From Deltaproteobacteria bacterium (GTDB taxonomy: Bacteria; Desulfobacterota; GWC2-55-46; UBA9637): a stretch of DNA of 32,662 bases. Position 1 is the first letter of the stretch. The number at the start of each line of letters is the position of its first letter. Below, in pieces: positions 15,379-31,090 of this stretch. The DNA is taken from the NCBI GenBank assembly GCA_016219285.1, contig JACRNJ010000047.1:1-32662 (forward strand), given 5' to 3'. Below the pieces are notes generated by a model, which saw only the letters and a list, made by a program, of their open reading frames with translations, was not told where the DNA came from and did no database searches. Both the position numbers and the translations under genes were made by a program.

Positions 15379-15407
15379 TTGACATTCTACGCTAAGTAGA
15401 ATATATT
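15379..15407 (+). promoter_or_regulatory. blaI-M56 promoter with embedded operator
   Basis: TTGACA (15379-15384), 17-nt spacer, TATATT (15402-15407); the spacer is exactly TTCTAC-GCTAA-GTAGAA. Confidence 0.8.
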
Positions 15408-15413
15408 GGGACT

Positions 15414-15851
15414 ATGTTAACGGTATTGGCAAATAATTTTAGGCTAAAAAAGGCAGGGCTTGGCCGGGCGCTTGGCGACCTTGAGAAGAATATTATGGAT
15501 ATCCTTTGGTTTAGGGGAGAGGCTACCGGCAAAGAGATTTTTTCAGAGGTCAGGCAGTCAAGGGATATTGCCATTACAACGGTTCTTACGGTTCTTGAGA
15601 GGCTTGCCAAGAAGGGGATTGTAAGGAAGAGTAAGGGTGAAAGTGTTTATGTATATGTGCCGGTTTTTACCAAGACAGAGTTTACAGACATGGTTTCTCA
15701 AGAGGTAATGAAGGGTATTATGGATATATCTGCGAGTTCTGCCGTTGCATCACTGGTGGATATCCTTGCGGATACAGACCCGCATGAATTGGACAGGCTT
15801 TCCAAACTTATAGAAAAAAAGAAGAAGGAAATAAGGCAGAAGGCAGGATAA
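15414..15851 (+). CDS. BlaI/MecI/CopY-family winged-helix repressor
   Basis: LGDLEKNIMDILWFRGEATGKEIFSEVRQSRDIAITTVLTVLERLAKKGIVRKSKGESVYVYVPV. Confidence 0.92.
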   Translation: MLTVLANNFRLKKAGLGRALGDLEKNIMDILWFRGEATGKEIFSEVRQSRDIAITTVLTVLERLAKKGIVRKSKGESVYVYVPVFTKTEFTDMVSQEVMKGIMDISASSAVASLVDILADTDPHELDRLSKLIEKKKKEIRQKAG

Positions 15852-15855
15852 TGTA

Positions 15856-16788
15856 ATGATTTTATTTATACCAATCATTGTGGCATTGGCTTTGGCATGG
15901 CTTATCTATGCCTTTCCCCAGATGCTTGTATTTACAGCAGCCATGGCAGAATGGTGCCAGAGTCTCTTGCTTCAGTGCCTTGCATATTTATTGATTGTAA
16001 AAATATCTTTTCTGTGGCTGGGTTTTGGTATGGTGGCTGCTGCTTTTATGTATGCTTTTTTAAAGGCGGCCTTTATGCTAATGCGAACACAGAGGCAGAT
16101 TAAAAATCTTCCGCTGGCTGATTATGGCGATATCATGATTATCAGGGATGATAAGCTGAAAACAGCATTTACCCACGGCTTTTTTAATCCAAAGATCTAT
16201 ATATCCAGAGGCCTTATCAATTCTCTTGATAGTTCTGAATTTCAGGCAGTTTATCTGCATGAACTGCATCATAAAAATCGTAAAGACCCGCTAAGACTTT
16301 TTATCTTATCAATTTTAAGAGACGCATTTTTGTATATTCCAATAAGCAGATTTTTTGCAGAGTTTATTCATAGCAAGGCTGAGGCTGCGGCAGATGATGC
16401 GGTAGTTGCTCAGATGAAAGAGCCCCTAAGCCTTGCAGGCGCACTTTTGAAGATTGCAGGGCTTAACAAAGAAGTCAGAAGTCAGGAGTCAGGAGCCAGA
16501 ATTAATGTCATACTGCAACCTGCATCAATCAACGGATTTGGCTCTACAGAGGCAAGGATAAAAAGGCTTATTCAAGAGACAGAGGAGAGGGTCAACCTTC
16601 CTGCGATAAAGACAAGCATAGTAAGCATCTTGATATCAGGATTTTTGGCCATATCCCTCACCATGCCGTTCTATATATCTTTTCCAGCCATAGGGCAATG
16701 CGATACAAGCCACTGTGCTGTTCATATGAATAAACTGGGAAAAGATTGCCAGAGCCATTGCGAGACCTCTCAGAAGCACAACCACTAA
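15856..16788 (+). CDS. M56 (BlaR1-like) membrane metalloprotease with short Cys/His-rich C-terminal tail
   Basis: HELHH zinc motif in VYLHELHHKNRKDPLRLF; TM segments; tail QCDTSHCAVHMNKLGKDCQSHCETSQKHNH; no penicillin-binding domain. Confidence 0.88.
   Translation: MILFIPIIVALALAWLIYAFPQMLVFTAAMAEWCQSLLLQCLAYLLIVKISFLWLGFGMVAAAFMYAFLKAAFMLMRTQRQIKNLPLADYGDIMIIRDDKLKTAFTHGFFNPKIYISRGLINSLDSSEFQAVYLHELHHKNRKDPLRLFILSILRDAFLYIPISRFFAEFIHSKAEAAADDAVVAQMKEPLSLAGALLKIAGLNKEVRSQESGARINVILQPASINGFGSTEARIKRLIQETEERVNLPAIKTSIVSILISGFLAISLTMPFYISFPAIGQCDTSHCAVHMNKLGKDCQSHCETSQKHNH
16472..16499. repeat. Heptanucleotide array inside the M56 gene
   Basis: AAGTCAG AAGTCAG GAGTCAG GAGCCAG. Confidence 0.8.
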
Positions 16789-16806
16789 AAATTTTTTGGT
16801 GATATA

Positions 16807-16823
16807 TTCTACAGCATGTAGAA
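16807..16823. promoter_or_regulatory. Putative BlaI-type operator upstream of the metal efflux operon
   Basis: TTCTAC-AGCAT-GTAGAA, same half-sites and spacing as 15385-15401. Confidence 0.75.
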
Positions 16824-16842: not shown

Positions 16843-17247
16843 ATGAAAATGATAAGAATCAGCGCAGTGTTTGGATTGGCGGTTGTTCTTGTGTTTTTCT
16901 GGATGCAGACAGCCTCTGCACAGATGGAACATAGGAGTGCCGGCGAAGCCAAGACAACAGACGGCATAAAGGCTGTATTAAAGGTTACTCCGTCTCAAAA
17001 CATGGTGGACTTGCTGTTGTATGATTTTAAAACCGGCAAGGCTATTACAGAGGCAAAGGTTGCTGTGAAGGTTAAAGGCCCTGACAACAAGGTTCAGGAA
17101 AAAGAGCTTCTTGGAATGCAAATGGGAGAGGAATTTTCCTTTATGAATAGGCTGGACACAGCAAAGAAAGGCAGCTATAGTTTTGCCATTGCTGTTGGGA
17201 TTGGAAAGAAGAATATCAAATTGAATTTTGTGTATGAGGTGAAGTGA
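16843..17247 (+). CDS. Small periplasmic FixH/YtkA-like protein, first gene of the efflux operon
   Basis: Signal peptide MKMIRISAVFGLAVVLVFFWMQTASA; beta-rich domain; overlaps the next gene (TGATG). Confidence 0.5.
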   Translation: MKMIRISAVFGLAVVLVFFWMQTASAQMEHRSAGEAKTTDGIKAVLKVTPSQNMVDLLLYDFKTGKAITEAKVAVKVKGPDNKVQEKELLGMQMGEEFSFMNRLDTAKKGSYSFAIAVGIGKKNIKLNFVYEVK

Positions 17248-18605
17248 TGCAGAAGCAAGAGTCAAGGGTCAAGGCACAGAGGATAATTTCGATTTTCGGT
17301 TTTCGATTTCAGAATTTAAAATCGCAAATCGTAAATCGTAAATCGCAACTCGTTTTGCTGCTTACTGCCTGCTGCTTAATGGTGGGCATAGCCCACCCTA
17401 CTTTTGCTGCGGATACCGTCTCCCTTTCCTCTCTTATTGACGAGGCTAAAAAGAACAACCCTGAAATTCAGGCCTATCAAAAAAGGATAAAGGCAAAAGA
17501 GCATAGGGCAAAAGTGGAGGGTGTTCTTGATGATCCGCAGTTCAAAGTTGAGGTAATGGATATACCGGGAGATAAACCATTTAATCTTGGAGACTCCATG
17601 CAGACCAGATACACCTTGAGTCAGATGTTTCCATTTCCAGGCAAGTTATCTTTAAAGCAAAAAGCAGCTATGAAAGAGGTTTTAATGGCAGCTTCTGAGG
17701 CCGCAAATAAAGAGCTTGAGGTTGTTTCAATGTTAAAACAGGCATATTTTGATTATGCCTATATTCTTGAATCAATAAAAATAACAAAAGAGGTAAAGGA
17801 AATCCTTTCCAAAATGGCGGATATTGCTCAAATAAGGTACTCAACAAATCAGGCCTCTCAGCAGGATGTTATAAAGGCTCATGTTGAGGTTACCATGCTG
17901 CAAAATGAGCTTATTTATCTTGAGGCTGAAAAGAATATTGTTATGGCAAAGCTCAATTCTATTTTGAGCAGAGATGCTGCATCTCCAATCGGAGAACCTG
18001 AAGATATAAAGACATACAGGATGACACTAACTCAAGGCTTAAGCCTTGAGCTGCAAAAAACAGCAATTGAAAAAAGTCCATCGTTAAGGGCAATGGAATA
18101 TGATATTCAGGCAAGGGATGCAGAAATTGAATTAAATAAAAAGAACTATTACCCGGATTTTATGGTTGGTGTTGCGCCGATACAGAGAAATGGCAGATTT
18201 GACACATATGATTTGATGTTTAGTGTGAATATTCCTGTTTGGTGGGGCAAATATGACAATCAGTTTTCAGAGGCAAGGGTGAATCTCGATGTCTTGAAAT
18301 CGAAACTCAAGGCAGAGCAGAATATAAAAATATTTGAGGTAAAAGAGTCTTTTATAAATGTTGAGGCGGCAAAAAGGGTAAGAGATTTATATGAGACAGG
18401 GCTTCTGCCTCAGGCTGAAATTTCTTTTCAATCCGCAATGGTCAATTATCAGACGAGCAGGGTTGATTTTCTTACAGTCCTTGACAGCCAGAGGATGCTT
18501 AAAAAGACAAGGGTTGAATATATAAAATCCATTGTTGAATACAGGAAGAATATTGCCATGCTTGAAAAAGCGGTGGGAGAAGATTTTGAAAACAGTAAGC
18601 AGTAG
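17247..18605 (+). CDS. TolC/CusC-family outer-membrane efflux protein
   Basis: LSSLIDEAKKNNPEIQAYQKRIKAKEHRAKVEGVLDDPQFKVEVMDIPGDKPFNLGDSMQTRYTLSQMFPFPGKLSLK. Confidence 0.9.
   Translation: MQKQESRVKAQRIISIFGFRFQNLKSQIVNRKSQLVLLLTACCLMVGIAHPTFAADTVSLSSLIDEAKKNNPEIQAYQKRIKAKEHRAKVEGVLDDPQFKVEVMDIPGDKPFNLGDSMQTRYTLSQMFPFPGKLSLKQKAAMKEVLMAASEAANKELEVVSMLKQAYFDYAYILESIKITKEVKEILSKMADIAQIRYSTNQASQQDVIKAHVEVTMLQNELIYLEAEKNIVMAKLNSILSRDAASPIGEPEDIKTYRMTLTQGLSLELQKTAIEKSPSLRAMEYDIQARDAEIELNKKNYYPDFMVGVAPIQRNGRFDTYDLMFSVNIPVWWGKYDNQFSEARVNLDVLKSKLKAEQNIKIFEVKESFINVEAAKRVRDLYETGLLPQAEISFQSAMVNYQTSRVDFLTVLDSQRMLKKTRVEYIKSIVEYRKNIAMLEKAVGEDFENSKQ
17256..17401. repeat. Composite repeat: three heptad arrays plus a GTAG-REP, in the TolC-like 5' coding region
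   Basis: CAAGAGT CAAGGGT CAAGGCA; TTTCGAT TTTCGGT TTTCGAT / AAATCGC AAATCGT AAATCGT AAATCGC AACTCGT; CTGCTTA CTGCCTG CTGCTTA; GGTGGGC-ATA-GCCCACC-CTAC. Confidence 0.8.
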
Positions 18606-18626: not shown

Positions 18627-19919
18627 GTGAAAAGATTTTTGATAGGTCTTTTGTTTTTGTTAATCGGTCTTGCCATCGGCGGTGTCGGAACATGGCTGTA
18701 TATTCAGAAGCCAGAAGTCAGAAGCCAGAAGTCAGAAGAGACAGAGAAAGCAAAAAAGGTCTTATTCTACCGCCATCCCATGAACCCCCGGGTTACATCC
18801 CCTGCTCCTCAAAAAGATGAGATGGGTATGGACTATGTGCCTGTCTATGAAGAAGATAGCGCAGAAACCGAGACGCCCGGCGCTGTAAGGATAAGCCCTG
18901 AAAAGATTCAGAAGATTGGCGTTAAATCAGAAGGGGCTAAGATAAGAAACCTGAAGAGGACAATAAGGACAGTTGGCAGGATTGAGCATGATGAATCAAA
19001 GGTCTTTGTGATTAACACGAAAGTAGGCGGTTGGATTGAAAGGCTCTATGCAAACAGGACTGACCTTATGGTTCACCCCGGTGAAAAACTTCTTGAAATC
19101 TACAGCCCAGAGCTGGTTGCAACGCAGGAGGAATATCTTCTGGCGTTTAAAAATATGGGAAAGTTAAAAGACAATCCATATCCTGAAATAAAAAAGGGCG
19201 CCGAATCCCTTTTGCAGGCGGCAAGGCAGAGGCTTAAATACTGGGATATTACCGAAGAACAGGTAAAAAGGCTTGAAGAAAAGGGAGAGATTACCAGGAC
19301 GATGGCTATCTATGCGGATGTGCACGGCATTGTGACTGAAAAGATGGTCAACCAAGGCATGAAAATAGAGGGCGGCGAAATGTTGTTTAAAATTATAGAC
19401 CATTCCGACGTATGGGTATATGGCGAGGTATATGAATATGAACTTCCGTTTATAAAGCTTGGGCAAAAGGCAAGGATTATCCCATCCTATACGCCAGCAG
19501 AGGTTTATACTGCTGCTATAAGCCACATCTATACTCATTTCGGCAGCGCCAGACATGAGGCAGAGGGGATGATGGAGGAGTCAAGGACTGCAAAGATACG
19601 GTTTGACCTGCCCAACCCTGAACATAAATTGAAGCTGGGAATGTATGTGAATGTTGAACTTGCCATAGATGTTGCAGCAAATGCCTTAACTGTTCCTGAT
19701 TCCGCTGTCATAGACACCGGCGAAAGACAGGTGATCTTTGTAGATAAAGGCGACGGCAGATTTGAACCAAGGGAGGTGACGGTCGGCGCACTGGCAGACG
19801 GCTACTATCAGGTTCTGTCCGGCATAAAAGCAGGAGAGAAGGTTGTCACATCAGCAAATTTTCTAATTGATTCCGAATCCAGTTTCAGGGCAGCCATAAG
19901 CGGAATGAAAGGTCACTAA
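18627..19919 (+). CDS. cusB: RND periplasmic adaptor (CusB-like)
   Basis: FYRHPMNPRVTSPAPQKDEMGMDYVPVYEED; VFVINTKVGGWIERLYANRTDLMVHPGEKLLEIYSPEL. Confidence 0.93.
   Translation: MKRFLIGLLFLLIGLAIGGVGTWLYIQKPEVRSQKSEETEKAKKVLFYRHPMNPRVTSPAPQKDEMGMDYVPVYEEDSAETETPGAVRISPEKIQKIGVKSEGAKIRNLKRTIRTVGRIEHDESKVFVINTKVGGWIERLYANRTDLMVHPGEKLLEIYSPELVATQEEYLLAFKNMGKLKDNPYPEIKKGAESLLQAARQRLKYWDITEEQVKRLEEKGEITRTMAIYADVHGIVTEKMVNQGMKIEGGEMLFKIIDHSDVWVYGEVYEYELPFIKLGQKARIIPSYTPAEVYTAAISHIYTHFGSARHEAEGMMEESRTAKIRFDLPNPEHKLKLGMYVNVELAIDVAANALTVPDSAVIDTGERQVIFVDKGDGRFEPREVTVGALADGYYQVLSGIKAGEKVVTSANFLIDSESSFRAAISGMKGH
18705..18739. repeat. Heptanucleotide array inside the CusB-like gene
   Basis: CAGAAGC CAGAAGT CAGAAGC CAGAAGT CAGAAGA. 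Confidence 0.85.
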
Positions 19920-22900
19920 TGCTAAAAAAAATTATAGAACTTTCCATAAACAATAAACTCATCATAATCCTCTTTACCCTTTTTGCGGCCGGCTGGGGTA
20001 TCTGGGCTGTCTATCGCACACCGCTGGATGCAATCCCGGATTTATCAGATGTTCAGGTTATTATTTATACTGACTATCCCGGGCAGGCGCCGCAGGTTGT
20101 TGAAGACCAGATTACCTATCCGCTCACAACCGCCATGCTCTCAGTGCCAAAATCAAAAGTTGTAAGAGGTTTTTCATTCTTTGGCGTATCATTTATCTAT
20201 ATTATCTTTGAGGACGGCACTGATATCTATTGGGCGAGGAGCAGGGTGCTTGAATATCTGAACTTTGCATCGGGAAAACTTCCCAAAGGTGTAACGCCGT
20301 CTCTTGGCCCTGACGCAACCGGCGTTGGATGGGTCTTTCAATATTCTATAGAAGGCAAAGGTTATAGTCTTGCCGAACTCAGAAGTATTCAGGATTGGTA
20401 TGTCCGTTATCAGCTTACCAAGGTTCCGGGTGTTTCAGAGGTTGCATCCATTGGCGGCTTTGTAAAACAGTATCAGGTGAATATAGACCCCAACAGGCTT
20501 CTCACCCATAACATTGCGCTCAGGGATGTGGTTGACTCAATTAAGATGGGCAATATGGATGTGGGCGGCAGGATTGTGGAATTAACCGAACGGGAGTATA
20601 TGGTCAGGGGTCTTGGCTATATCAAGAATATCCCTGATATAGAAAATATAGTTTTAAAGGTTGACAGAAGCGGGACGCCGATAAGGATAAAGGATGTGGC
20701 AAGGGTTGAACTTGGGCCCGATGAAAGACGTGGTATTGTAGAAAGAGACGGCGAGGGTGAAGTAGTGGGCGGCATTGTTGTGATGCGGTTTGGGCAGAAT
20801 GCCCTTAAAGTCATTGATGATGTAAAGAAAAAGATTGAAGAACTCAAACCAGGCCTTCCTCCGGGTGTTCAAATCATTACAACTTATGACAGAAGCCACT
20901 TAATCCATCGGGCAATTGAAACTCTAAAGGAAAAACTTATAGAAGAATCCATTGTTGTTTCTCTGGTGTGTATTATCTTCCTTCTGCATTTCAGGTCTGC
21001 CCTTGTTGCGATCCTCATGCTTCCTGTAAGCATCCTCATATCATTTATAGTTATGTATTACCTTAAAATCAACGCAAATATCATGAGCCTCGGCGGCATT
21101 GCCATTGCTGTTGGCGCTATGATAGATGGCGCAATTGTGATGATAGAAAATGCGCACAAGCATTTGGAAAGGGCTCAAGGGGTCGAGGGGGCAAGGGGTC
21201 AAGGAAAACAGGATGTAGGGTGGGCTGCGCCCACCGATAGATGGCAGATTATCGCTGATGCTGCAAAAGAGGTCGGCCCTCCGCTCTTCTTTTCCCTTCT
21301 TATCATTACAGTTTCATTTATACCTGTGTTTACGCTTGAGGCGCAGGAGGGCCGTTTGTTCAAGCCGCTAGCATTTACAAAGACATTTGCAATGGCTGCA
21401 TCAGCGCTTTTATCCATAACCCTGGCGCCTGTGCTCATGGGGTTTTTTATAAGAGGCCGTATTATGCCTGAAAAGAAAAATCCAATAACAAGGTTTTTAA
21501 TCTGGATATACAAGCCAATTATAAACCTTGTGCTCAAGGCAAAGCTCATTACCATTTTTATTGCAATTGCTGTGCTTATTGCAACCATATATCCTTTTAA
21601 AAAACTCGGCAGCGAGTTCATGCCAACGCTTTATGAAGGTTCTCTCATGTTCATGACTGCGACGCTTCCGGGTGTATCAAGCACAAAAATAAACGAAATC
21701 CTGCAGACAACAGACAGGATTATAAAATCATTTCCAGAGGTGGAGCAGGTCTTCGGAAAGGTCGGCCGCGCCCAGACAGCAACAGACCCTGCGCCATTAG
21801 AGATGTTTGAGACAACTATAAATTTAAAACCTGAGAGCGAGTGGCGGTCCGGCATGACTGTAGATAAACTTGTTTCTGAGATGAGCAAGGCATTAGAAAT
21901 GCCGGGCATCCCCATCCAGTGGTCAATGCCCATAAAAAACAGGGTTGATATGCTGGCAACAGGCATACGCACGTCTGTCGGTGTAAAGGTTTTTGGAAAG
22001 GATTTAAAGACCATTGAACAACTGGCAGTTGATATTGAAGCAGCATTAAAAATGGTTCCCGGCACAGCCAGCGCTTATGCAGAGAGGATTATCGGCGGAT
22101 ATTATGTTGACGTAAAGATAAAACGCGATGAGGCAGCAAGATATGGACTCAAGGTTGAAGACATCCAGCAGGTTATTATGTCAGCCATCGGAGGGGAAAA
22201 TATAACAACAACAGTGGAAGGCCTGGAGAGATACCCGATAAACGTCAGATACAAAAGAGAGCTTCGGGATAATGTTGATAAGATTGGAAGGGTGCTTATT
22301 CCAACAATGATGAATCAACATATACCTTTATCTCAGGTGGCCGACATAAAACTCAGCAAAGGTGTGGCAGGGATAAAAACAGAAAATGCCCTTTTAAACA
22401 CATGGGTATTTGTGGATGTGCGTGGCAGAGACATTGGCAGCTATGTTCAAGACGCAAAAAAGGCTGTGCTGGAGAATGTCAAGTTTCCTCCTGGCTATTA
22501 TGTTGCATGGAGCGGACAGTATGAATATATGGAAAGGGCGTATGCAAAATTAAAGGTTATTGTGCCGCTAACCCTCGCTATAATATTTTTACTGCTCTAT
22601 TTTAACTTTGGCAATATCACAGAAAGTTTGATTGTCATGCTTTCTTTGCCCTTCTCTCTGGTCGGCGGTATTTGGCTTATGTATATTTTAGGCTATAATA
22701 TGAGTGTGGCTGTGGGCGTCGGGTTTATTGCCCTTGCCGGAGTTGCCGCTGAGACAGGAGTTATAATGCTTATCTATCTGGATAGCGCGTATCAAGAGGC
22801 AAGAGGCAAGAGGCAAGAGGCAAGAGAAGAAATGAGCAAAAAGGATTTATATGATGCGGTGATTGAAGGCGCTGTTGAAAGAGTTAGACCAAAGATGATG

Positions 22901-23077
22901 ACAGTTGTCGCTATAATGGCAGGACTTTTACCTATTATGTGGGGGGCTGGCACAGGTTCAGAGGTTATGAAGCGCATTGCAGCGCCAATGGTGGGAGGCA
23001 TGATTTCATCAACAATATTAACGTTGATTGTTATCCCGGCGATTTACACATTGTGGAAGGAACGAAAGAGCAATTAA
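19919..23077 (+). CDS. cusA: Heavy-metal RND efflux pump (CusA-like)
   Basis: 1052 aa; TPLDAIPDLSDVQVIIYTDYPGQAPQVVEDQITYPL; VGAMIDGAIVMIENAHKHLE; SIPVFTLEAQEGRLFKPLAFTKTFAM. Confidence 0.96.
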   Translation: MLKKIIELSINNKLIIILFTLFAAGWGIWAVYRTPLDAIPDLSDVQVIIYTDYPGQAPQVVEDQITYPLTTAMLSVPKSKVVRGFSFFGVSFIYIIFEDGTDIYWARSRVLEYLNFASGKLPKGVTPSLGPDATGVGWVFQYSIEGKGYSLAELRSIQDWYVRYQLTKVPGVSEVASIGGFVKQYQVNIDPNRLLTHNIALRDVVDSIKMGNMDVGGRIVELTEREYMVRGLGYIKNIPDIENIVLKVDRSGTPIRIKDVARVELGPDERRGIVERDGEGEVVGGIVVMRFGQNALKVIDDVKKKIEELKPGLPPGVQIITTYDRSHLIHRAIETLKEKLIEESIVVSLVCIIFLLHFRSALVAILMLPVSILISFIVMYYLKINANIMSLGGIAIAVGAMIDGAIVMIENAHKHLERAQGVEGARGQGKQDVGWAAPTDRWQIIADAAKEVGPPLFFSLLIITVSFIPVFTLEAQEGRLFKPLAFTKTFAMAASALLSITLAPVLMGFFIRGRIMPEKKNPITRFLIWIYKPIINLVLKAKLITIFIAIAVLIATIYPFKKLGSEFMPTLYEGSLMFMTATLPGVSSTKINEILQTTDRIIKSFPEVEQVFGKVGRAQTATDPAPLEMFETTINLKPESEWRSGMTVDKLVSEMSKALEMPGIPIQWSMPIKNRVDMLATGIRTSVGVKVFGKDLKTIEQLAVDIEAALKMVPGTASAYAERIIGGYYVDVKIKRDEAARYGLKVEDIQQVIMSAIGGENITTTVEGLERYPINVRYKRELRDNVDKIGRVLIPTMMNQHIPLSQVADIKLSKGVAGIKTENALLNTWVFVDVRGRDIGSYVQDAKKAVLENVKFPPGYYVAWSGQYEYMERAYAKLKVIVPLTLAIIFLLLYFNFGNITESLIVMLSLPFSLVGGIWLMYILGYNMSVAVGVGFIALAGVAAETGVIMLIYLDSAYQEARGKRQEAREEMSKKDLYDAVIEGAVERVRPKMMTVVAIMAGLLPIMWGAGTGSEVMKRIAAPMVGGMISSTILTLIVIPAIYTLWKERKSN
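21176..21204. repeat. 7-8 nt tandem array inside cusA
   Basis: TCAAGGG TCGAGGGG GCAAGGGG TCAAGG. Confidence 0.7.
21215..21235. repeat. GTAG-REP palindrome inside cusA
   Basis: GTAG-GGTGGGC-TGC-GCCCACC. Confidence 0.75.
22793..22827. repeat. Heptanucleotide array inside cusA
   Basis: CAAGAGG x4 then CAAGAGA. Confidence 0.9.
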
Positions 23078-23142: not shown

Positions 23143-23162
23143 AAAGAAAGGAGGTGATACCG

Positions 23163-23531
23163 ATGGGATTTTCAAGAATAGTTATTGCAGTTTTTTTGGC
23201 AGTTTCGCTTATGGCAATGCCTGTATTTGCTGATGAAAAGCACGGTGCAACAAGCGGAGGCATGATGGGCGAACATGGCATGATGGGTGAGGGGATGATG
23301 GGCAGCAAGATGATGGGAGAGCATCACAAGATGATGCAGGATACGATGGGCATGATGAAGGAGATGATGGAGATGATGAAAAATATGTTTCCTGCGCCAG
23401 GCGATGTACAGAAGAAAAGGCTTGACGAAATGATGATGAAGATGGATGGGATGATGAAGATGCACGATGAGATGTTTAAAAAGAAGGAAGAGATGAAGAA
23501 GAAAAAGATGGAAGAAAAGAAGGGGATGTAA
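23163..23531 (+). CDS. Met/His-rich periplasmic protein, putative metal-binding
   Basis: Signal peptide then GGMMGEHGMMGEGMMGSKMMGEHHKMMQDTMGMMKEMM; perfect SD AAAGGAGGTGAT. Confidence 0.8.
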   Translation: MGFSRIVIAVFLAVSLMAMPVFADEKHGATSGGMMGEHGMMGEGMMGSKMMGEHHKMMQDTMGMMKEMMEMMKNMFPAPGDVQKKRLDEMMMKMDGMMKMHDEMFKKKEEMKKKKMEEKKGM

Positions 23532-23627
23532 GCGGTTTGCGGGTGGGTGGCCATCCAGCTCAGTTGCCCTCTTTGCCACGATATGCTGTTTGAATGTTAT
23601 TAAATCTTAAAAATTTTTGGAGGCAGT

Positions 23628-23855
23628 ATGGAAATTGTAATGGGTATAGTATTGGCTGTTATGATAATTGGGTTTGTTTCAGGAGGCGGGATGATGGGCG
23701 GGATGATGGGCGGCCACGATAAAGATAAGCAGAAACAGGAGCATGTTATAAAGGACAATGGTCATAAGAAAAGCGACTGTAAGGCAGCCGGAGATGATCA
23801 GAAAGATAACGCTGCAGATAAGGACAATACTAATTGTGAAGAAATAAAAAAATAA
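23628..23855 (+). CDS. Small single-TM protein with Met/His/Cys tail
   Basis: MEIVMGIVLAVMIIGFVSGGGMMGGMMGGHDKDKQKQEHVIKDNGHKK. Confidence 0.65.
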   Translation: MEIVMGIVLAVMIIGFVSGGGMMGGMMGGHDKDKQKQEHVIKDNGHKKSDCKAAGDDQKDNAADKDNTNCEEIKK

Positions 23856-23972
23856 CTATATAAAGGCATTTTTTCAGTATCAACTAACTATCCCTAAACT
23901 CAATTGTTTTCAGGGATGCGCTATATGTGAAACATTCATGAGCCTTTGGCTCTCAAAAGATAATAAAAATCG

Positions 23973-24024
23973 GTAGTCGCACCCTTTATGGGTGCGTTTG
24001 CGCAGGCATAAAGCCTGCGGCTAC
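23973..24024. repeat. GTAG...CTAC REP-like doublet (two hairpins)
   Basis: GTAGT-CGCACCC-TTTAT-GGGTGCG-TTTG-CGCAGGC-ATAAA-GCCTGCG-GCTAC. Confidence 0.8.
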
Positions 24025-24042
24025 CACTATTGGGATTTTCAG

Positions 24043-25731
24043 GTGAAAACGACAATCTATCTTTTATTGGCTTTTACTGTTGCATCTCTGTCTGTTTTCT
24101 ATCTCGGCACGGCAGGTATGGTGGCAGTAATATTTTTCATAATAACAGGATTTGCATTAGTCGGCGCCAGCGCCTTTACTGCTTATTACTCAAAATTATT
24201 GGGTGAAAAAGGCGGCCAGCTCGCTACTATTATTTTAAGGAATCTCCTTGGCATCCCTTTGTGGTTTACAGGCTTTGTCCTCGCATGGCTTGAACCGTCA
24301 CCCTTTCTATTTGATTCCAATATAACATTTAAGCTCATTGGGTTATTCCTGATAATTTTAGGCTCTATCCCCTTTATATGGGGACACATTGAACTTGGCT
24401 GGCGCACGCACATGCCGTCTGTAAAAGATACGCTGGTGCGGCACGGATTATATGCATATGTGCGTCATCCCATATACGCAGGTGGGTTTTTGCTCTTGGC
24501 AGGGCTTGCGCTCCTGAGACCGACATATTCTTTTGTCATCGCATGCGTGTTAGGAGAAGTCTGGCTCATGATTCAGGCAAGGCTTGAGGAGATAGACCTC
24601 CTTCAGCGTATGCCGGATTATCGGGAATATATGAAACAGGTGCCTCGTTTCATACCACGATTTCGCAAGTCCCTGCTAGTATCGGGTATATGGCTATTGT
24701 TGGTATTGTTTTATTCTTCCACAACCACCTATGCCCTTTCTCAGGAAGAAGAGGCAAATATCAAGGTATATGAGGAGATAAGCCCGAGAGTTGTAAACAT
24801 CATAAATACCACTGTCTCGTATGACTTTTTCTTTAATCCCATCCCTCAAAGTGGCGCAGGTTCTGGTTCTCTCATTGATAAGAAAGGGCATATACTTACC
24901 AACTACCATGTGGTGGAAGGTGCACAAAGGCTTGAGGTCACCCTCTTTGACGGTAGTAAATGGGAGGCAAAGTTTGTCGGTGCAGACCCTGGTAATGACT
25001 TGGCAGTCATAAGGATAGATGCCCCTCCTGATAAACTAAAGCCGCTCCCCTTTGGTGATTCTTCAGGATTAAAGGTGGGACAAAAGTTATTGGCTATTGG
25101 CAATCCATTTGGTCTTGAACGGACACTTACTGTTGGGATTGTGAGCTCTCTTGGGAGAACAATGAGGGCTGCTAATGGAAGACTCATGAGGAGGATAATA
25201 CAGACCGATGCGGCTATAAATCCAGGGAATTCAGGAGGCCCACTTTTGGATAGTAATGGCAAGATGATTGGTGTCAATTCTGCCATCATTAGTCCTGTGG
25301 GTGCCAGTGTGGGGATTGGTTTTGCAGTCCCTGTGAATACTGTAAGGAGTGTTGTGTCGCAGTTGATAGAGAAGGGCCGTGTAGCAAGACCATGGCTTGG
25401 CATAACTGGACAGGATATAAACGCTGATATTGCGAGATTATTAAAACTGCCATCAGAAGGAGTTCTCATTGCAGAGATTGTAAATGGCAGTCCTGCAGAT
25501 AAGGCAGGTATCAGAGGAGGTAAAAGGATTGTAAGGACAGGAAACCTCCAGGTAGTTATCGGAGGCGATATGATAGTTGGTATTAGTGGAAAGACTATCA
25601 GGACAATGGATGAGTTAGTAGAGGATATAGAGTCAATGGCAGTAGGGCAGTCTATTGATGTTACTATTATGAGGGGTAGTCAGAGGAAGACTGTCAAGGT
25701 CTATCTCTCGGAGATGCCTCCTGAACAATAA
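24043..25731 (+). CDS. Fusion: isoprenylcysteine methyltransferase (ICMT/PEMT)-like membrane domain + HtrA/DegP-like serine protease with PDZ
   Basis: N-terminal ...LVRHGLYAYVRHPIYAGGFLLLAGLAL...ARLEEIDLL; C-terminal LTNYHVVEGA, GNDLAVIRID, NPGNSGGPLL triad and PDZ; one uninterrupted frame. Start set at GTG 24043, outside the REP-derived ORF extension. Confidence 0.85.
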   Translation: MKTTIYLLLAFTVASLSVFYLGTAGMVAVIFFIITGFALVGASAFTAYYSKLLGEKGGQLATIILRNLLGIPLWFTGFVLAWLEPSPFLFDSNITFKLIGLFLIILGSIPFIWGHIELGWRTHMPSVKDTLVRHGLYAYVRHPIYAGGFLLLAGLALLRPTYSFVIACVLGEVWLMIQARLEEIDLLQRMPDYREYMKQVPRFIPRFRKSLLVSGIWLLLVLFYSSTTTYALSQEEEANIKVYEEISPRVVNIINTTVSYDFFFNPIPQSGAGSGSLIDKKGHILTNYHVVEGAQRLEVTLFDGSKWEAKFVGADPGNDLAVIRIDAPPDKLKPLPFGDSSGLKVGQKLLAIGNPFGLERTLTVGIVSSLGRTMRAANGRLMRRIIQTDAAINPGNSGGPLLDSNGKMIGVNSAIISPVGASVGIGFAVPVNTVRSVVSQLIEKGRVARPWLGITGQDINADIARLLKLPSEGVLIAEIVNGSPADKAGIRGGKRIVRTGNLQVVIGGDMIVGISGKTIRTMDELVEDIESMAVGQSIDVTIMRGSQRKTVKVYLSEMPPEQ

Positions 25732-25762
25732 TGGCTGATAAATCTTTGTGAGGGTAGATGGA

Positions 25763-25966
25763 ATGGCAAAGGACCCTATATGCGGAATGGATGTTGATGA
25801 GAGGGATGCGCAGTTTATGACCCACATCGGGCATGAGACATTATACTTTTGTTCAAAGGTCTGTCAGGAGAGATTTGAGATAAAGGAAGGTATCATAAAG
25901 GAACCTAAAAAATGGTGGCAGAGGATATTAAAAGAGCCAAAAGAAAAGCCCCCGAAATGCCATTGA
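25763..25966 (+). CDS. YHS-domain protein
   Basis: MAKDPICGMDVDERDAQFMTHIGHETLYFCSKVCQERFEIKEG. Confidence 0.9.
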   Translation: MAKDPICGMDVDERDAQFMTHIGHETLYFCSKVCQERFEIKEGIIKEPKKWWQRILKEPKEKPPKCH

Positions 25967-26068
25967 CTTTTTTGCAGACAGGTAAAAATATAAAGAATAA
26001 ACCACTATGTTTATTTGAAAAGGAACCATCATGATGAAAAACAGGCCCTGGCATTAACAGGAGGGAAT

Positions 26069-26242
26069 ATGAACTATTCAACACTACTAATCATAATAAT
26101 CTTTGCGCTGGTCATGTTTTTTATGCACCGTGGCGGTGGCGGCATGGGGTGCTGCGGCGGTGGCCACTCTCACAAGGGAAAAAAAGAGCAAGATAGCGAC
26201 GAAAAAGAAGATGAGAAGGAAGGAGGCCATCATCATGGATAA
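26069..26242 (+). CDS. Small single-TM protein with Cys/His-rich tail
   Basis: MNYSTLLIIIIFALVMFFMHRGGGGMGCCGGGHSHKGKKEQDSDEKEDEKEGGHHHG; SD GGAGGG. Confidence 0.65.
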   Translation: MNYSTLLIIIIFALVMFFMHRGGGGMGCCGGGHSHKGKKEQDSDEKEDEKEGGHHHG

Positions 26243-27626
26243 GAAACAGGGTGACAATAAAAAATCAGGAACAACACTTCTTTTCATACTCGGCTGTCTT
26301 CTCCCTTTAATCATCCTTTTTGTTGTTTCCGGGCTTGGTTTCAGCATAAGCCCGTGGGTTTTCATCCTTATACTTTTACTATGCCCGGTTTTCTTATTCT
26401 GGATAATGGGACACGGGGATGAAATGGAAGACGTCGGAGAGTCTGATGGATCGGATGAGATCCAAAAAAAAGAAAAATCTCCTTTTGAAATAGAGAAAGA
26501 CAAGACGCTTGAGGAGATGGCCGAACTTTTTTCATGGGGTGTTTTTTTCGTAAAACGCAAAGAGGTTGCAGGAGATGCTTTTATCTTCGAAGGAAACCTG
26601 AGGGCAAGGCCCGAATCGGCTTTGGACATCTTAAAAGGCCGCTTTAAGGAGAAGTTTGGCAATAGATACCAGCTTCTTTTACAGCAGGATGCGGAAGAAA
26701 GGCCTGTCATAGTTGCCGTCCCTCTAAAAGATGTTGAAACCGGCGATAAAGCAAATAATACATCCAGCCCTTTGATAAACATAATTCTATTCCTTGCTAC
26801 TGTTGTAACGACCACCATTGCAGGGGCTTCGCATTGCGGCGTAAACCTGTTTCTTGAGCCTTCCAAATTTGCGCTCGGTCTTCCTTATGCCTTCGGCATT
26901 ATGGCTATACTCGGCATCCATGATCTCGGCCATTACATATTCGCAAGAAGGCATGGCATAGACACAACGCTTCCGTATTTCATACCAATACCATTCGGCC
27001 TCGGCACATTTGGCGCGGTTATCCGGATGAAGTCCCTTGTAAAAGACAGAAAGGCGCTCTTTGATACAGGCATAGCAGGCCCAATTGCAGGCCTTATTGT
27101 AACAATACCGCTTTTGTATTTAGGGCTTAAATATTCCACTGTTGTCAAAGACGGCAGTCAGGCAGGTGTCAGCCTCTCATCCTCGGTGCTTCTTGCGTTT
27201 ATCTCAAGGCTATCCCTCGGAGATACAGTGGCGGCAAGCCATACAGTAATCCTGCATCCGCTGGCATTTGCAGGATGGCTTGGGCTCATGATTACCGCGC
27301 TCAATCTTCTGCCTATAGGCCAGTTAGACGGCGGACATATAAGCCACGCCCTTTTCGGTAGAACAAAGGCCGGGATTATAGCTTATGTGGCTTTTTTTGC
27401 GATTATCCTCTTGGGGATATTCGTATGGTCAGGTTGGCTCATGTGGGCTATTATAGTGTTTTTCCTGTCAGGCGCAAGAGGGCTTCCGCCTGTAAATGAT
27501 GTTACGGAACTTGACCGCAAAAGGGTTGTAATCGGCACTGTTGCATTTGTTCTGTTATTTCTAATAATGTCGCCCTTGCCGCACGTATTTTACAAGACTC
27601 TTGGACTTCATTGTCCTTATCTTTAA
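26235..27626 (+). CDS. M50/site-2-protease-family (EGY-like) membrane protein
   Basis: LGIHDLGHYIFARRHGIDTTLPYFIPIPFGLGTFGAVIRMKS; NLLPIGQLDGGHISHALFG. Confidence 0.88.
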   Translation: MDKKQGDNKKSGTTLLFILGCLLPLIILFVVSGLGFSISPWVFILILLLCPVFLFWIMGHGDEMEDVGESDGSDEIQKKEKSPFEIEKDKTLEEMAELFSWGVFFVKRKEVAGDAFIFEGNLRARPESALDILKGRFKEKFGNRYQLLLQQDAEERPVIVAVPLKDVETGDKANNTSSPLINIILFLATVVTTTIAGASHCGVNLFLEPSKFALGLPYAFGIMAILGIHDLGHYIFARRHGIDTTLPYFIPIPFGLGTFGAVIRMKSLVKDRKALFDTGIAGPIAGLIVTIPLLYLGLKYSTVVKDGSQAGVSLSSSVLLAFISRLSLGDTVAASHTVILHPLAFAGWLGLMITALNLLPIGQLDGGHISHALFGRTKAGIIAYVAFFAIILLGIFVWSGWLMWAIIVFFLSGARGLPPVNDVTELDRKRVVIGTVAFVLLFLIMSPLPHVFYKTLGLHCPYL

Positions 27627-27638
27627 GGAGGTTTATTT

Positions 27639-27869
27639 ATGTCAATAGTCATGGGAGTCATGATAGTGTTTATGGTTGCAGGTTTTTTTGGTTTTGGTAT
27701 GCATCACAGCATGATGGGAGGCCGCGGGAAAGAAGAACAGAAGCAGGAAAAGGTCTTGCATGAACACGACAAAGAGATGTTGTGTCCTGAAGTAGATGGT
27801 CAAGCAGATTGTCCGTCTCATGCCATGCCGGAGAAAGAAAACAAAGGTTACTCATCGGAAGAAAAATAA
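27639..27869 (+). CDS. Small single-TM protein with Met/His/Cys tail
   Basis: MSIVMGVMIVFMVAGFFGFGMHHSMMGGRGKEEQKQEKVLHEHDKEMLCPEVDGQADCPSHAMPE. Confidence 0.65.
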   Translation: MSIVMGVMIVFMVAGFFGFGMHHSMMGGRGKEEQKQEKVLHEHDKEMLCPEVDGQADCPSHAMPEKENKGYSSEEK

Positions 27870-27927
27870 CAGAGATGATGAAAAGGCATAGCGGCACTAT
27901 AATTAAAAACAGAAAGGAGCTATCCGC

Positions 27928-29040
27928 ATGAACGAACTGACTGAAAAAGAGAAAAGGTTCAGGGTATATCTCGTAGTGCTGGCATTCGCTCTCTTCACCG
28001 TATTCCTTTTCGGCCTGGTCTACCTTGCAACTACTCCCGCGAAAACGCTGACGATGCTATTGTCATTTTCGGGAGGCATTTCCAATATCGTCCTTCCGTG
28101 TACACTTCCCCTCGTTTTTATAATCGTCCCGCTTGCGATGTCCGCAGGCAGCGCAAAGAAAGGCTTGGGCATGGCGGTTCTGTTCGGCGCGGGGCTGACC
28201 ATAACGCTTTCCATATATGGGGCCGCAATAGCGCAGGTCGGGAAATACTTGGGGCTTGATGACGCCACGAGGATTATGTACGGGCTTGCCGGACTTGCGG
28301 CCTTAATATTCGGCCTGAGCGAATTGAAGCTTATAAAGTTTGAATTGCCCACATATATGAGGATGCCGCAGTTCATACAAAAGCAGGGGGATTATGTAAA
28401 GGTTTTCCTCCTTGGGCTGCTGTTGGGAAACGCAGGGGTCGGCTGCCCGAACCCGGTAACCTATATCATCCTTACCTTTGCGGCCACGACAGGCGATTGG
28501 GCGCAGGGGGCGTTATTGATGGCAGTAAACGGAATAGGAAGGGTGGTTCCGTTGCTCTTTTTGACCGTCCTTGGAATATTGGGGGTCAATGCTATTGGCG
28601 GTCTGACGAAAAGAATGGAGGGGATTAGAAAATTTACAGCCTGGGTCCTCGTAGTGCTGGGGGCATTTATTATATTTAACGGAATCTATGGCCATCTGTG
28701 GTATGAAGGAGGAATATTCCATGAAGGCTTGAATTATGCCTTTATGAAAATAGGCGGGAAGATGGTCGGGGAGGCTGACATAGCCATAGGACAGTTTGAA
28801 AAAAAGGTCCCCTATGTCGAGTACGGCGCATGGATGAACCTCGCGATTACTCTTATTGTAGTCTTCTGGTATTGGCTCAAATACCCGGGCTCGCGTAAAG
28901 AGGCGCTGACGGTCTTCATAATATTTCTGGTGTGGGGTCTCATCCTGTTAGATGTAGGTCTTGACGCAATGAAGCTTGCAGGTTTGTCAGAGGGTCTGCC
29001 GGAGGAGATGCTAAAGGCAATGCCATGGATGAAAAAATAA
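27928..29040 (+). CDS. CcdA/DsbD-family transmembrane thiol-redox protein
   Basis: GGISNIVLPCTLPLVFIIVPLAMSAG and GNAGVGCPNPVTYIIL. Confidence 0.75.
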   Translation: MNELTEKEKRFRVYLVVLAFALFTVFLFGLVYLATTPAKTLTMLLSFSGGISNIVLPCTLPLVFIIVPLAMSAGSAKKGLGMAVLFGAGLTITLSIYGAAIAQVGKYLGLDDATRIMYGLAGLAALIFGLSELKLIKFELPTYMRMPQFIQKQGDYVKVFLLGLLLGNAGVGCPNPVTYIILTFAATTGDWAQGALLMAVNGIGRVVPLLFLTVLGILGVNAIGGLTKRMEGIRKFTAWVLVVLGAFIIFNGIYGHLWYEGGIFHEGLNYAFMKIGGKMVGEADIAIGQFEKKVPYVEYGAWMNLAITLIVVFWYWLKYPGSRKEALTVFIIFLVWGLILLDVGLDAMKLAGLSEGLPEEMLKAMPWMKK

Positions 29041-29080
29041 AGCGGCAGATTAAACCAAACTGAACTGAAAGGGGGGTTTT

Positions 29081-29227
29081 ATGGCAAAGGATCCGGTTTG
29101 CGGTATGGAAGTGGATGAAAAGAAGGCGGCCAAGGTCGTATATAAAGGCAAAACATATTACTTCTGCAACGCTAGTTGCCAGTGGGCTTTTGAAGCCAAT
29201 CCGGAACAGTTTATAAAGGAGGGATAA
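29081..29227 (+). CDS. YHS-domain protein (absent from ORF track, 48 aa)
   Basis: MAKDPVCGMEVDEKKAAKVVYKGKTYYFCNASCQWAFEANPEQFIKEG; SD AAGGGGGG. Confidence 0.85.
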   Translation: MAKDPVCGMEVDEKKAAKVVYKGKTYYFCNASCQWAFEANPEQFIKEG

Positions 29228-29228
29228 C

Positions 29229-29465
29229 ATGGCTGATGTTCAGATACTTACCACTCCTTCCTGCTCGAGTTGCGCGGTTGTTAAAAGGATGCTCGATAAA
29301 ATGGGCGTGAAATATGAATTGATAGACATTACAGCAAACCCTGAGATACTACAGAAGTATCCCATAATGTCCGCCCCCGGTGTTGTTATAAACGGCAAAC
29401 TCTAATTCATTGGAGTTCCAAGGGAGAAGGAATTAGCTGAAAAGATAAAAGTGTTTAAGGGGTAA
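29229..29465 (+). pseudogene. Small thioredoxin/glutaredoxin-like protein interrupted by one in-frame TAA
   Basis: MADVQILTTPSCSSCAVVKRMLDKMGVKYELIDITANPEILQKYPIMSAPGVVINGKL*FIGVPREKELAEKIKVFKG*; internal stop at 29403-29405. Confidence 0.7.
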
Positions 29466-29500
29466 TCCGGTTCCATCGGTAGAATAAAGCGGAGGTGTTT

Positions 29501-29704
29501 ATGGCAAAGGATCCTATATGCGGCATGGATGTAGATGAAAAAGACGCTAAATTTATGACCTACATCGGTCATGAAACATTCTACTTTTGCTCAAAGGTCT
29601 GTCAGGAGAGTTTTGAGGTAAAAGAAGGTCTCAGAGAGGAACCTAAAAAATGGTGGCAGAGGATATTAAAAGAGCCAAAAGAAAAGCCGCCAAAGTGTCA
29701 TTGA
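29501..29704 (+). CDS. YHS-domain protein, near-identical paralog of 25763-25966
   Basis: MAKDPICGMDVDEKDAKFMTYIGHETFYFCSKVCQESFEVKEG...EPKKWWQRILKEPKEKPPKCH. Confidence 0.9.
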   Translation: MAKDPICGMDVDEKDAKFMTYIGHETFYFCSKVCQESFEVKEGLREEPKKWWQRILKEPKEKPPKCH

Positions 29705-29738
29705 ATTAAAACTTTTCAATGCAGGTGTGGAGGTGAAT

Positions 29739-30377
29739 ATGCACGGTGAAAACATATCATACGCTTACGGTTTATGGTCTTTGGTTATAATCAATGTTGC
29801 CCTGTTCGCATTTTTTATCTTAAGCTACTTGGCCCCGGTCAGGAAGCGGGAATGGCGTTCAATGGGAGTGACATTAGCCTTCTTTGTCGCCCTGTTTACA
29901 GAGATGTATGGTTTCCCGCTCACCATCTATATCCTTACAGGTGTCCTTGGCAGCAGGTATCCTGCGCTGAATCCATTTTCCCATGCAAGCGGACACCTAT
30001 GGCTTACATTCTTTGGCGGTGGGACTTTGATGATGACAGTCATTCATCTTATAAGCAATGGTTTAACCATTATAGGTTTTGTAATAATGTGGAATAGCTG
30101 GAAATTGATACACGGCGCAAAAGGCGGACTTGTAACAGAAGGGGCGTACGCGTATGTCAGGCATCCTCAGTATTCAGGCCTTTTTCTCATCATGCTCGGC
30201 ATGCTCATCCAGTGGCCGACGATTATAACAGCCCTGATGTTCCCTGTGCTTGTTTTTGTCTATTATCGTCTGTCAAAGAGGGAAGAAGGCGAGATGATTA
30301 AAACATTCGGAGAAGAATATAAACAATACGCAGAAAAGGTTCCGATGTTTATTCCAAGGATTGGGAAAAGGGGGTGA
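29739..30377 (+). CDS. Isoprenylcysteine carboxyl methyltransferase-like membrane protein
   Basis: LVTEGAYAYVRHPQYSGLFLIMLGMLIQWPT...KREEGEMIKTFGEEYKQYAEKVPMFIPR. Confidence 0.85.
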   Translation: MHGENISYAYGLWSLVIINVALFAFFILSYLAPVRKREWRSMGVTLAFFVALFTEMYGFPLTIYILTGVLGSRYPALNPFSHASGHLWLTFFGGGTLMMTVIHLISNGLTIIGFVIMWNSWKLIHGAKGGLVTEGAYAYVRHPQYSGLFLIMLGMLIQWPTIITALMFPVLVFVYYRLSKREEGEMIKTFGEEYKQYAEKVPMFIPRIGKRG

Positions 30378-30381
30378 CAAT

Positions 30382-30552
30382 ATGGCAACAGACCCGGTTT
30401 GCAGGATGAGCATAAGCGAAGAAAAGGCGGTTGAAAAGACAGAATACAAAGGGAATACCTACTATTTCTGTGGAAAAGGGTGCAAAGAGAGGTTTGAAAA
30501 AGAACCTGAAAAGTATCTTGTGGGAGAAAAGAAAGACTGGATTAAGGGGTAA
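30382..30552 (+). CDS. YHS-domain protein
   Basis: MATDPVCRMSISEEKAVEKTEYKGNTYYFCGKGCKERFEKEPEKYL. Confidence 0.9.
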   Translation: MATDPVCRMSISEEKAVEKTEYKGNTYYFCGKGCKERFEKEPEKYLVGEKKDWIKG

Positions 30553-30730
30553 AAGATAAATGGGATGGCGTAATCTTTGTTTTCGGTGTAGAATGTGCCG
30601 TGAAGATAAGGAAAGGGTAATTGGGCCATGGCATTGCTTCCATGACCTGAGAAGTAACGTTGCCCTTTACTGATAACTAAAACCGTTGGAGATAAGCTTT
30701 AATGCTACCACAAGAAAGGAGGTGATACAG

Positions 30731-31090
30731 GTGAGTATTATAAAAATGGTTGTTTCAGCGTTTGTTTTGGTTTCGCTTGTTACAGTCCCTGCCATGGCAG
30801 ATGAGAAGAAAGGGGAGAAGAACCCATGCGGTATGATGGGCGAACATGGCATGATGGGCGGCAAAATGATGGAGATGAAAGAGCATCATAATATGATGCA
30901 GGATACCATGGGCATGATGAAGGAGATGATGGGGATATTAAAAGGTATGAATCATACTCCAAGTGATGCGCAGAAGAAAAGACTTGATGAGATGATGAAG
31001 AAGATGGACGACATGGTGAAGATGCACGAAGATATGATGAAGAAAAAGGAAGAGATGATGAAGAAAAAGATGGAAAAGAAGGGGATGTAA
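30731..31090 (+). CDS. Met/His-rich periplasmic protein, paralog of 23163-23531
   Basis: GTG start after AAAGGAGGTGATACAG; signal peptide; CGMMGEHGMMGGKMMEMKEHHNMMQDTMGMMKEMM...DAQKKRLDEMM. Confidence 0.8.
   Translation: MSIIKMVVSAFVLVSLVTVPAMADEKKGEKNPCGMMGEHGMMGGKMMEMKEHHNMMQDTMGMMKEMMGILKGMNHTPSDAQKKRLDEMMKKMDDMVKMHEDMMKKKEEMMKKKMEKKGM

Follow-up and report, generated by a model that had tools for sequence, protein, structure and literature searches.

The window, meaning the whole stretch of 32,662 nucleotides, belongs to a genome of 2.28 Mb in 84 contigs (99% complete). It holds a locus in which the gene for a BlaI/MecI-family repressor (blaI) is followed by the gene for an M56 membrane metalloprotease (m56) and by an efflux cluster (Table 1). 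An earlier sequence-only reading had proposed that blaI and m56 precede heavy-metal RND genes, and profile matches for BlaI, M56, CusC-, CusB- and CusA-type proteins bear this out. The same reading placed the second of two operators (O2) directly before the efflux operon. The position was correct, but a gene that had not been counted, encoding a putative periplasmic protein of 134 aa, lies between O2 and cusC. This protein is of the secreted type and carries the conserved-Met motif LxGMxMG...FSxMN, and a small Met-containing secreted-type protein also sits between O2 and cusC in many relatives. It is possible that it acts as a CusF-like copper carrier. Downstream of the pump (23154-31090) lies a cluster of likely metal-handling genes, which encode two Met-rich proteins (23154 and 30686), three YHS proteins, an M50-type protease, a DsbD-type protein and a methyltransferase-HtrA fusion frame (23992-25731).

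Table 1. Features of the blaI-m56-efflux locus (positions in the window)
Feature	Positions	Strand	Basis or remark
-35 hexamer TTGACA, blaI promoter	15379..15384	+	11/12 sigma-70 match together with -10
Operator O1, TTCTAC-GCTAA-GTAGAA (TTCTACGCTAAGTAGAA)	15385..15401	+	exact 17-bp site
-10 hexamer TATATT, blaI promoter	15402..15407	+	sigma-70 match, 17-bp spacer
BlaI/MecI-family repressor, 145 aa	15414..15851	+	PF03965, E 3e-24
M56 membrane metalloprotease with HELHH, 310 aa	15856..16788	+	PF05569
M56 codons 34-41, C34 and C41 loop (predicted periplasmic)	15955..15978	+	conservation
M56 codons 282-310, C-terminal Cys/His tail	16699..16785	+	conservation
A5T6 tract, overlaps m56 stop codon	16787..16797	+	last T 10 bp before O2
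Operator O2, TTCTAC-AGCAT-GTAGAA (TTCTACAGCATGTAGAA)	16807..16823	+	exact site, 18 bp past m56 stop codon
Putative periplasmic protein, 134 aa, conserved Met, no Pfam family	16843..17247	+	opens efflux cluster
Outer membrane channel, CusC/TolC-type	17244..18605	+	PF02321
Periplasmic adaptor, CusB-type	18627..19919	+	profile search
RND pump, CusA-type, Met triad M579/M629/M678	19919..23077	+	TIGR00914, residue alignment

BlaI/MecI repressors are cleaved after signalling by BlaR1/M56 proteases. The repressor of the window falls in this family as proposed (86 bits against PF03965 Penicillinase_R, cut-off 22.6) and, with no Cys and a single His, offers no cysteine ligands for a metal. It is the only BlaI-family protein encoded in the source genome, which makes it the natural ligand of the operators. 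In an alignment with MecI, its S113-L114 falls on the scissile bond N101-F102 that is cut by BlaR1. At this putative site the relatives carry Phe at P1' in at least 90% of cases and mostly Ser at P1, and BlaR1 likewise cuts itself at a Ser-Phe pair, S283-F284 (PMC9834060). The S113-L114 region is consistent with a protease cleavage site, and the Leu found at P1' in the window, unlike the Phe of the family, counts against the circuit proposed below.

Both O1 and O2 are exact copies of one operator, as the sequence-only reading had stated, and its expectation that the motif is not scattered was upheld by a genome-wide search. O1 and O2 are the only exact matches to TTCTAC-N5-GTAGAA in the 2.28 Mb, and a control search with the pattern read backwards gave zero exact matches in the same genome. 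Allowing one mismatch added a single site (C33) inside a polysaccharide-ABC gene region; it lies among polysaccharide-export genes and was judged a chance match. The operator was also recovered de novo, when the 120 bp that follow the m56 stop codon in 53 relatives were searched for every perfect 6-mer dyad with a spacer of 0-11. The TTCTAC dyad with spacer 5 was found in 40 of the 53 loci. Since unrelated dyads reached at most two loci and shuffled sequences at most one, the sites are not attributable to chance. Six further loci carry the operator after m56 with one mismatch or in a 16-bp form. The five spacer bases of O2 vary freely among relatives, in a count whose search pattern set the half-sites but not the spacers. 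The copy in the blaI promoter is exact in some families and reads TTCTAC-N5-GTCGAA in another. Across 61 genomes there are about 105 exact sites, compared with 34 for the reversed control. The single BlaI-family gene and the conserved half-sites point to one repressor for both operators. Tandem operators, 28-31 bp apart, were seen at three loci (L140, L144 and L150) before BlaI-only Cus operons or a methyltransferase gene.

O1 is the exact 17-bp spacer between the -35 and -10 hexamers of the blaI promoter. Both hexamers abut the operator in 42 of 47 rows of relatives, one row of the 47 (L078) being a downstream site on a short contig. Because O1 fills the promoter spacer, a bound repressor would exclude the sigma factor from both hexamers. 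In one relative (L175:3310-3557) a truncated second blaI, which has an operator and a promoter to itself, lies upstream of the intact gene at a distance of about 2.8 kb.

The internal operator is built differently. No sigma-70 hexamers abut O2, and the lack of a recognisable sigma-70 promoter there for the efflux genes counts against the circuit reading. A sigma-70 promoter within the 130 bp upstream of O2 was considered and rejected, with top scores matching those of shuffled sequences (7.1 vs 6.8), as was an intrinsic terminator before O2, whose stems were no better than chance (mean z -0.26, 2 of 40 below -2). What does recur is an A/T tract with no TpA step. In nearly all of about 40 relatives it stops 10 bp before the internal operator, and this register is constant although the distance from the m56 stop codon to the operator spans 16 to 49 bp. 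Three loci of family f1 end the tract one base earlier, at -11. A G stands at -9 in 32 of 40 loci. Among 122 distinct sites, 71 have an abutting -35 hexamer (8 of these also with an A/T tract), 47 have the tract only and 4 have neither.

These patterns allow a tentative and rather doubtful proposal of two operator kinds, one filling the spacer at promoters and one, at O2, where BlaI bound 10 bp behind the tract stalls polymerase. Bound BlaI would halt the elongating enzyme on a weak RNA-DNA hybrid, the tract being U-rich in the RNA. If such a roadblock exists, the pump would be gated by a repressor-dependent stop of transcription as well as by initiation. Alternatively, the tract could belong to a promoter that lacks a -35 and has its cryptic -10 (NATTCT) within the operator. 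Base -1 of the internal operator is A in 32 of 39 sites while the symmetric base at +17 is T in just 10, an asymmetry that appears to fit the cryptic -10 better than a pure polymerase roadblock.

The M56 protein matches the M56 profile with 41.7 bits (cut-off 31) and its HEXXH...E...D set (H135, E136, H139, D144, E176, D180) is invariant among relatives. H201, H205, D210, E242 and D246 of BlaR1 correspond to H135, H139, D144, E176 and D180 at a constant offset of 66. A fold search with the AlphaFold model (mean pLDDT 82.5, pTM 0.69) placed the BlaR1 cryo-EM structures 8exq, 8ext and 8exr on top, at query TM-scores of only 0.32-0.42. The retained catalytic residues and a conserved, sensor-like Cys/His tail agree with the earlier assignment to a BlaR1-type protease. 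A C-terminal penicillin-binding domain is absent, the protein stopping 28 residues past C282, and the score against blaR1_generic is 30 bits (cut-off 400).

All six Cys of the protein are conserved among 53 sequences, two in the loop (C34 92%, C41 98%) and four in the 29-residue tail (C282 100%, C287 98%, C298 98%, C302 100%), as are two His of the tail (H290 88%, H301 92%). The tail follows the pattern C-x4-C-x2-H-x7-C-x2-H-C. Hydropathy gives segments at 1-31, about 34-76 and 248-276; C34 and C41 lie just past the first hydrophobic segment and the tail past the last. If the HEXXH domain is cytoplasmic, as it is in BlaR1, loop and tail would face the periplasm. The six Cys (C34, C41 and the C282-C302 tail) likely make up a metal sensor. 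The tail has a pLDDT of about 50 and is too poorly modelled for the coordination geometry to be read. The sequence-only reading had missed the Cys/His tail, the A/T tract before O2 and the precise geometry of the blaI promoter. A sister M56 subfamily (L083-L085 and L193) carries a different tail, CNHxYC...C...C, and its m56 gene is followed in L084, L085 and L193 by a 16-bp operator, TTCTAC-N4-GTAGAA, which suggests a diverged sister circuit. The A/T tract keeps its usual register at these three loci. In the same phylum and another class, L217 has a BlaI beside an M56 protein of 345 aa with a Cys-rich C terminus (CTKIDCMKCTIC), possibly another sensor variant.

The metal handled by the circuit may be judged from the pump and from the regulon. 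The CusA-type protein scores 1279 bits against TIGR00914 (CusA/CzcA; cut-off 701) and is closest to E. coli CusA. The Met triad M573/M623/M672 of the latter, its Cu/Ag site, is kept as M579/M629/M678, and this supports a copper or silver signal. The E. coli residues are treated in the literature, for example in PMC8092243. Elsewhere in the class, most extra exact sites have the layout TTGACA-[operator]-TATAAT. Behind the extra sites lie genes for heavy-metal P-type (P1B) ATPases with YHS domains, which score above the TIGR01511 copper cut-off, for YHS proteins and for small proteins of periplasmic type that match TRASH weakly, as well as BlaI-only Cus operons. This regulon content (Cu-ATPases, YHS, TRASH-like and Cus proteins) places the signal in the copper/silver class, and the comparison gives fair confidence that copper or silver would be the physiological signal. 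The soft-metal pump of the sequence-only reading fits this picture. In the window genome the regulon is limited to O1 and O2. No operator precedes the Cu-ATPase gene (C21) of this genome, which counts against the circuit. The sequence-only reading had BlaI/M56 stand in for the usual CusRS system. In a whole-genome search with the CusR-family profile, no response regulator passed the cut-off of 279.2 bits; the best two came close, at 260.9 and 246.8, and neither adjoins the operon.

The module was surveyed in 147 related genomes. The M56 protein turned up in 53 of them. One of these lies outside the class of the window; within the class, 52 of 63 genomes have the protein. The relatives are not independent, and the percentages given throughout therefore stand for fewer independent observations than they suggest. 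The named relatives are recorded as MAGs from groundwater and sediment, under the label Deltaproteobacteria. In nearly all loci m56 lies directly behind blaI. The simple ORF caller set some gene starts in relatives wrongly. The neighbourhood survey of BlaI-M56 and CusA that the earlier reading had proposed shows synteny: 45 of 55 loci have cusC/cusB/cusA-like genes after m56 on the same strand. At 8 of the other 10 the contig ends within about 0.8 kb, and the last two have other genes; at L079 these are a long ORF containing YHS and the gene of a Met-rich protein. A phylum-wide search of 396 genomes found just weaker M56 relatives outside the class. Other phyla were covered through one pattern-based scan. 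A distant locus (L193), in a MAG labelled Nitrospirae, combines a related M56, the operator with 4-bp spacer and a Cus-like operon. Searches of viral contigs found no relatives, and plasmids yielded nothing beyond distant, partial M56 matches.

We consider it likely that the locus is a self-contained circuit of proteolytic derepression responding to copper or silver, in which cleavage of the repressor probably switches the pump on. The proposal of the sequence-only reading, an M56 protein that senses a soft metal and sets off cleavage of the repressor, is partly supported by the comparative evidence. BlaI dimers on O1 and O2 would restrict the locus to low, basal expression. The M56 protein would be a zinc protease in the cytoplasm whose periplasmic Cys/His cluster (the C34/C41 loop and the C282-C302 tail) replaces the penicillin-sensor domain of BlaR1. 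Excess periplasmic Cu(I) or Ag(I) would load the cluster and activate the protease, which would cut BlaI at S113-L114. The fragments would lose affinity, O1 and O2 would be cleared, and blaI, m56 and CusCBA would be expressed. Once the metal is exported, the protease would fall silent and fresh BlaI would close the circuit. The evidence is comparative throughout. Computation established the genes and sites, the geometry of the promoter, the conservation, the content of the regulon and the catalytic and Met-triad residues, and from these we infer BlaI binding, the identity of the metal, the tail as sensor and cleavage.

The sensing step could be assigned differently. The six predicted periplasmic Cys could form disulfides, and they would equally suit a redox sensor or one for Hg, Cd or As, which counts against the circuit as drawn. 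The cluster would then report oxidative or envelope stress or a non-copper thiophilic metal, with the copper pump as one output, and the variable tail of the sister subfamily could be read in the same way. The conservation of the two tail His argues against this, as do the recognisable targets, which are copper-handling genes, Cu-type ATPases and a CusA with its Met triad; we regard this explanation as unlikely. Far less probable still is direct sensing by BlaI, with M56 accessory or unrelated. CopY is a BlaI-family copper repressor, and TIGR02698 (CopY_TcrY) is the best NCBIfam match of BlaI by E-value, but its 59.9 bits fall below the equivalog cut-off of 121.95. The protein has neither Cys nor a C-terminal cysteine metal site, no conserved Cys column exists among 35 relatives, so that the CxC site is absent, and the constant place of m56 behind blaI speaks against an unrelated protease. 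CopY-type sensing was therefore rejected.

Weak M48/HtpX profile matches and secondary fold matches to ZMPSTE24/Ste24 raise the alternative of a constitutive or generic quality-control protease of the HtpX/Ste24 kind, with BlaI answering some other signal. The M56 profile and the BlaR1 structures match better, however, and the strict adjacency to blaI and the conservation of the tail together with the operator make this highly improbable.

Control of copper genes by a BlaI/M56 pair is not new in principle. According to a commentary and reviews (PMC7896320, PMC12292863 and PMC13421787), PetP of Synechocystis sp. PCC 6803 removes or degrades PetR when copper is present, and there too a BlaI-family regulator gene adjoins an M56 protease gene. 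There the pair governs the plastocyanin and cytochrome c6 genes; the targets described here are the CusCBA genes, joined in relatives by those for Cu-ATPases and YHS/TRASH proteins. Control of petE/petJ was not found in the window: CusCBA genes are the neighbours, and of the only two sites one belongs to blaI and the other to the efflux cluster. The apparent sensor may also differ. With the staphylococcal BlaR1/BlaI and MecR1/MecI systems the locus shares the repressor fold, the M56 fold with its HEXXH...E...D set, an autoregulated operon and a cleavage site of the S/N-F type. It departs from them in its Gram-negative host, in operator half-sites with TAC/GTA spaced by 5 and in carrying the Cys/His tail instead of a penicillin-binding sensor domain. 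CopY/TcrY likewise place a BlaI-family winged helix over copper efflux, but here the repressor has no CxC site, the signal is expected via the protease, and the target is an RND pump, with a P-type ATPase also in relatives. The E. coli CusCFBA system has the same CusA-type Met-triad pump, CusB and CusC, and its CusF may correspond to the small Met-containing protein; it uses the two-component CusRS where the pump of the window probably has BlaI/M56. BlaR homologues of unknown role have been noted in marine bacteria (PMC10141476). No paper tying a BlaI/M56 pair to a Cus-type pump was found in a non-exhaustive search of the open-access literature. What appears to be new, on a shared chassis, is the combination of a seemingly different sensor module with other targets and operators of two types.

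These observations suggest that periplasmic sensors can be exchanged on the BlaR1 protease chassis, the one used here being a small Cys/His cluster. With a tail of 29 residues, metal selectivity can be put to a direct test, and the operator is unusually clean, so that the regulon can be read from sequence. Proteolytic derepression has so far been known mostly from antibiotic resistance and from one cyanobacterial switch; the present survey suggests that it is the standard control of copper export across a whole bacterial class.
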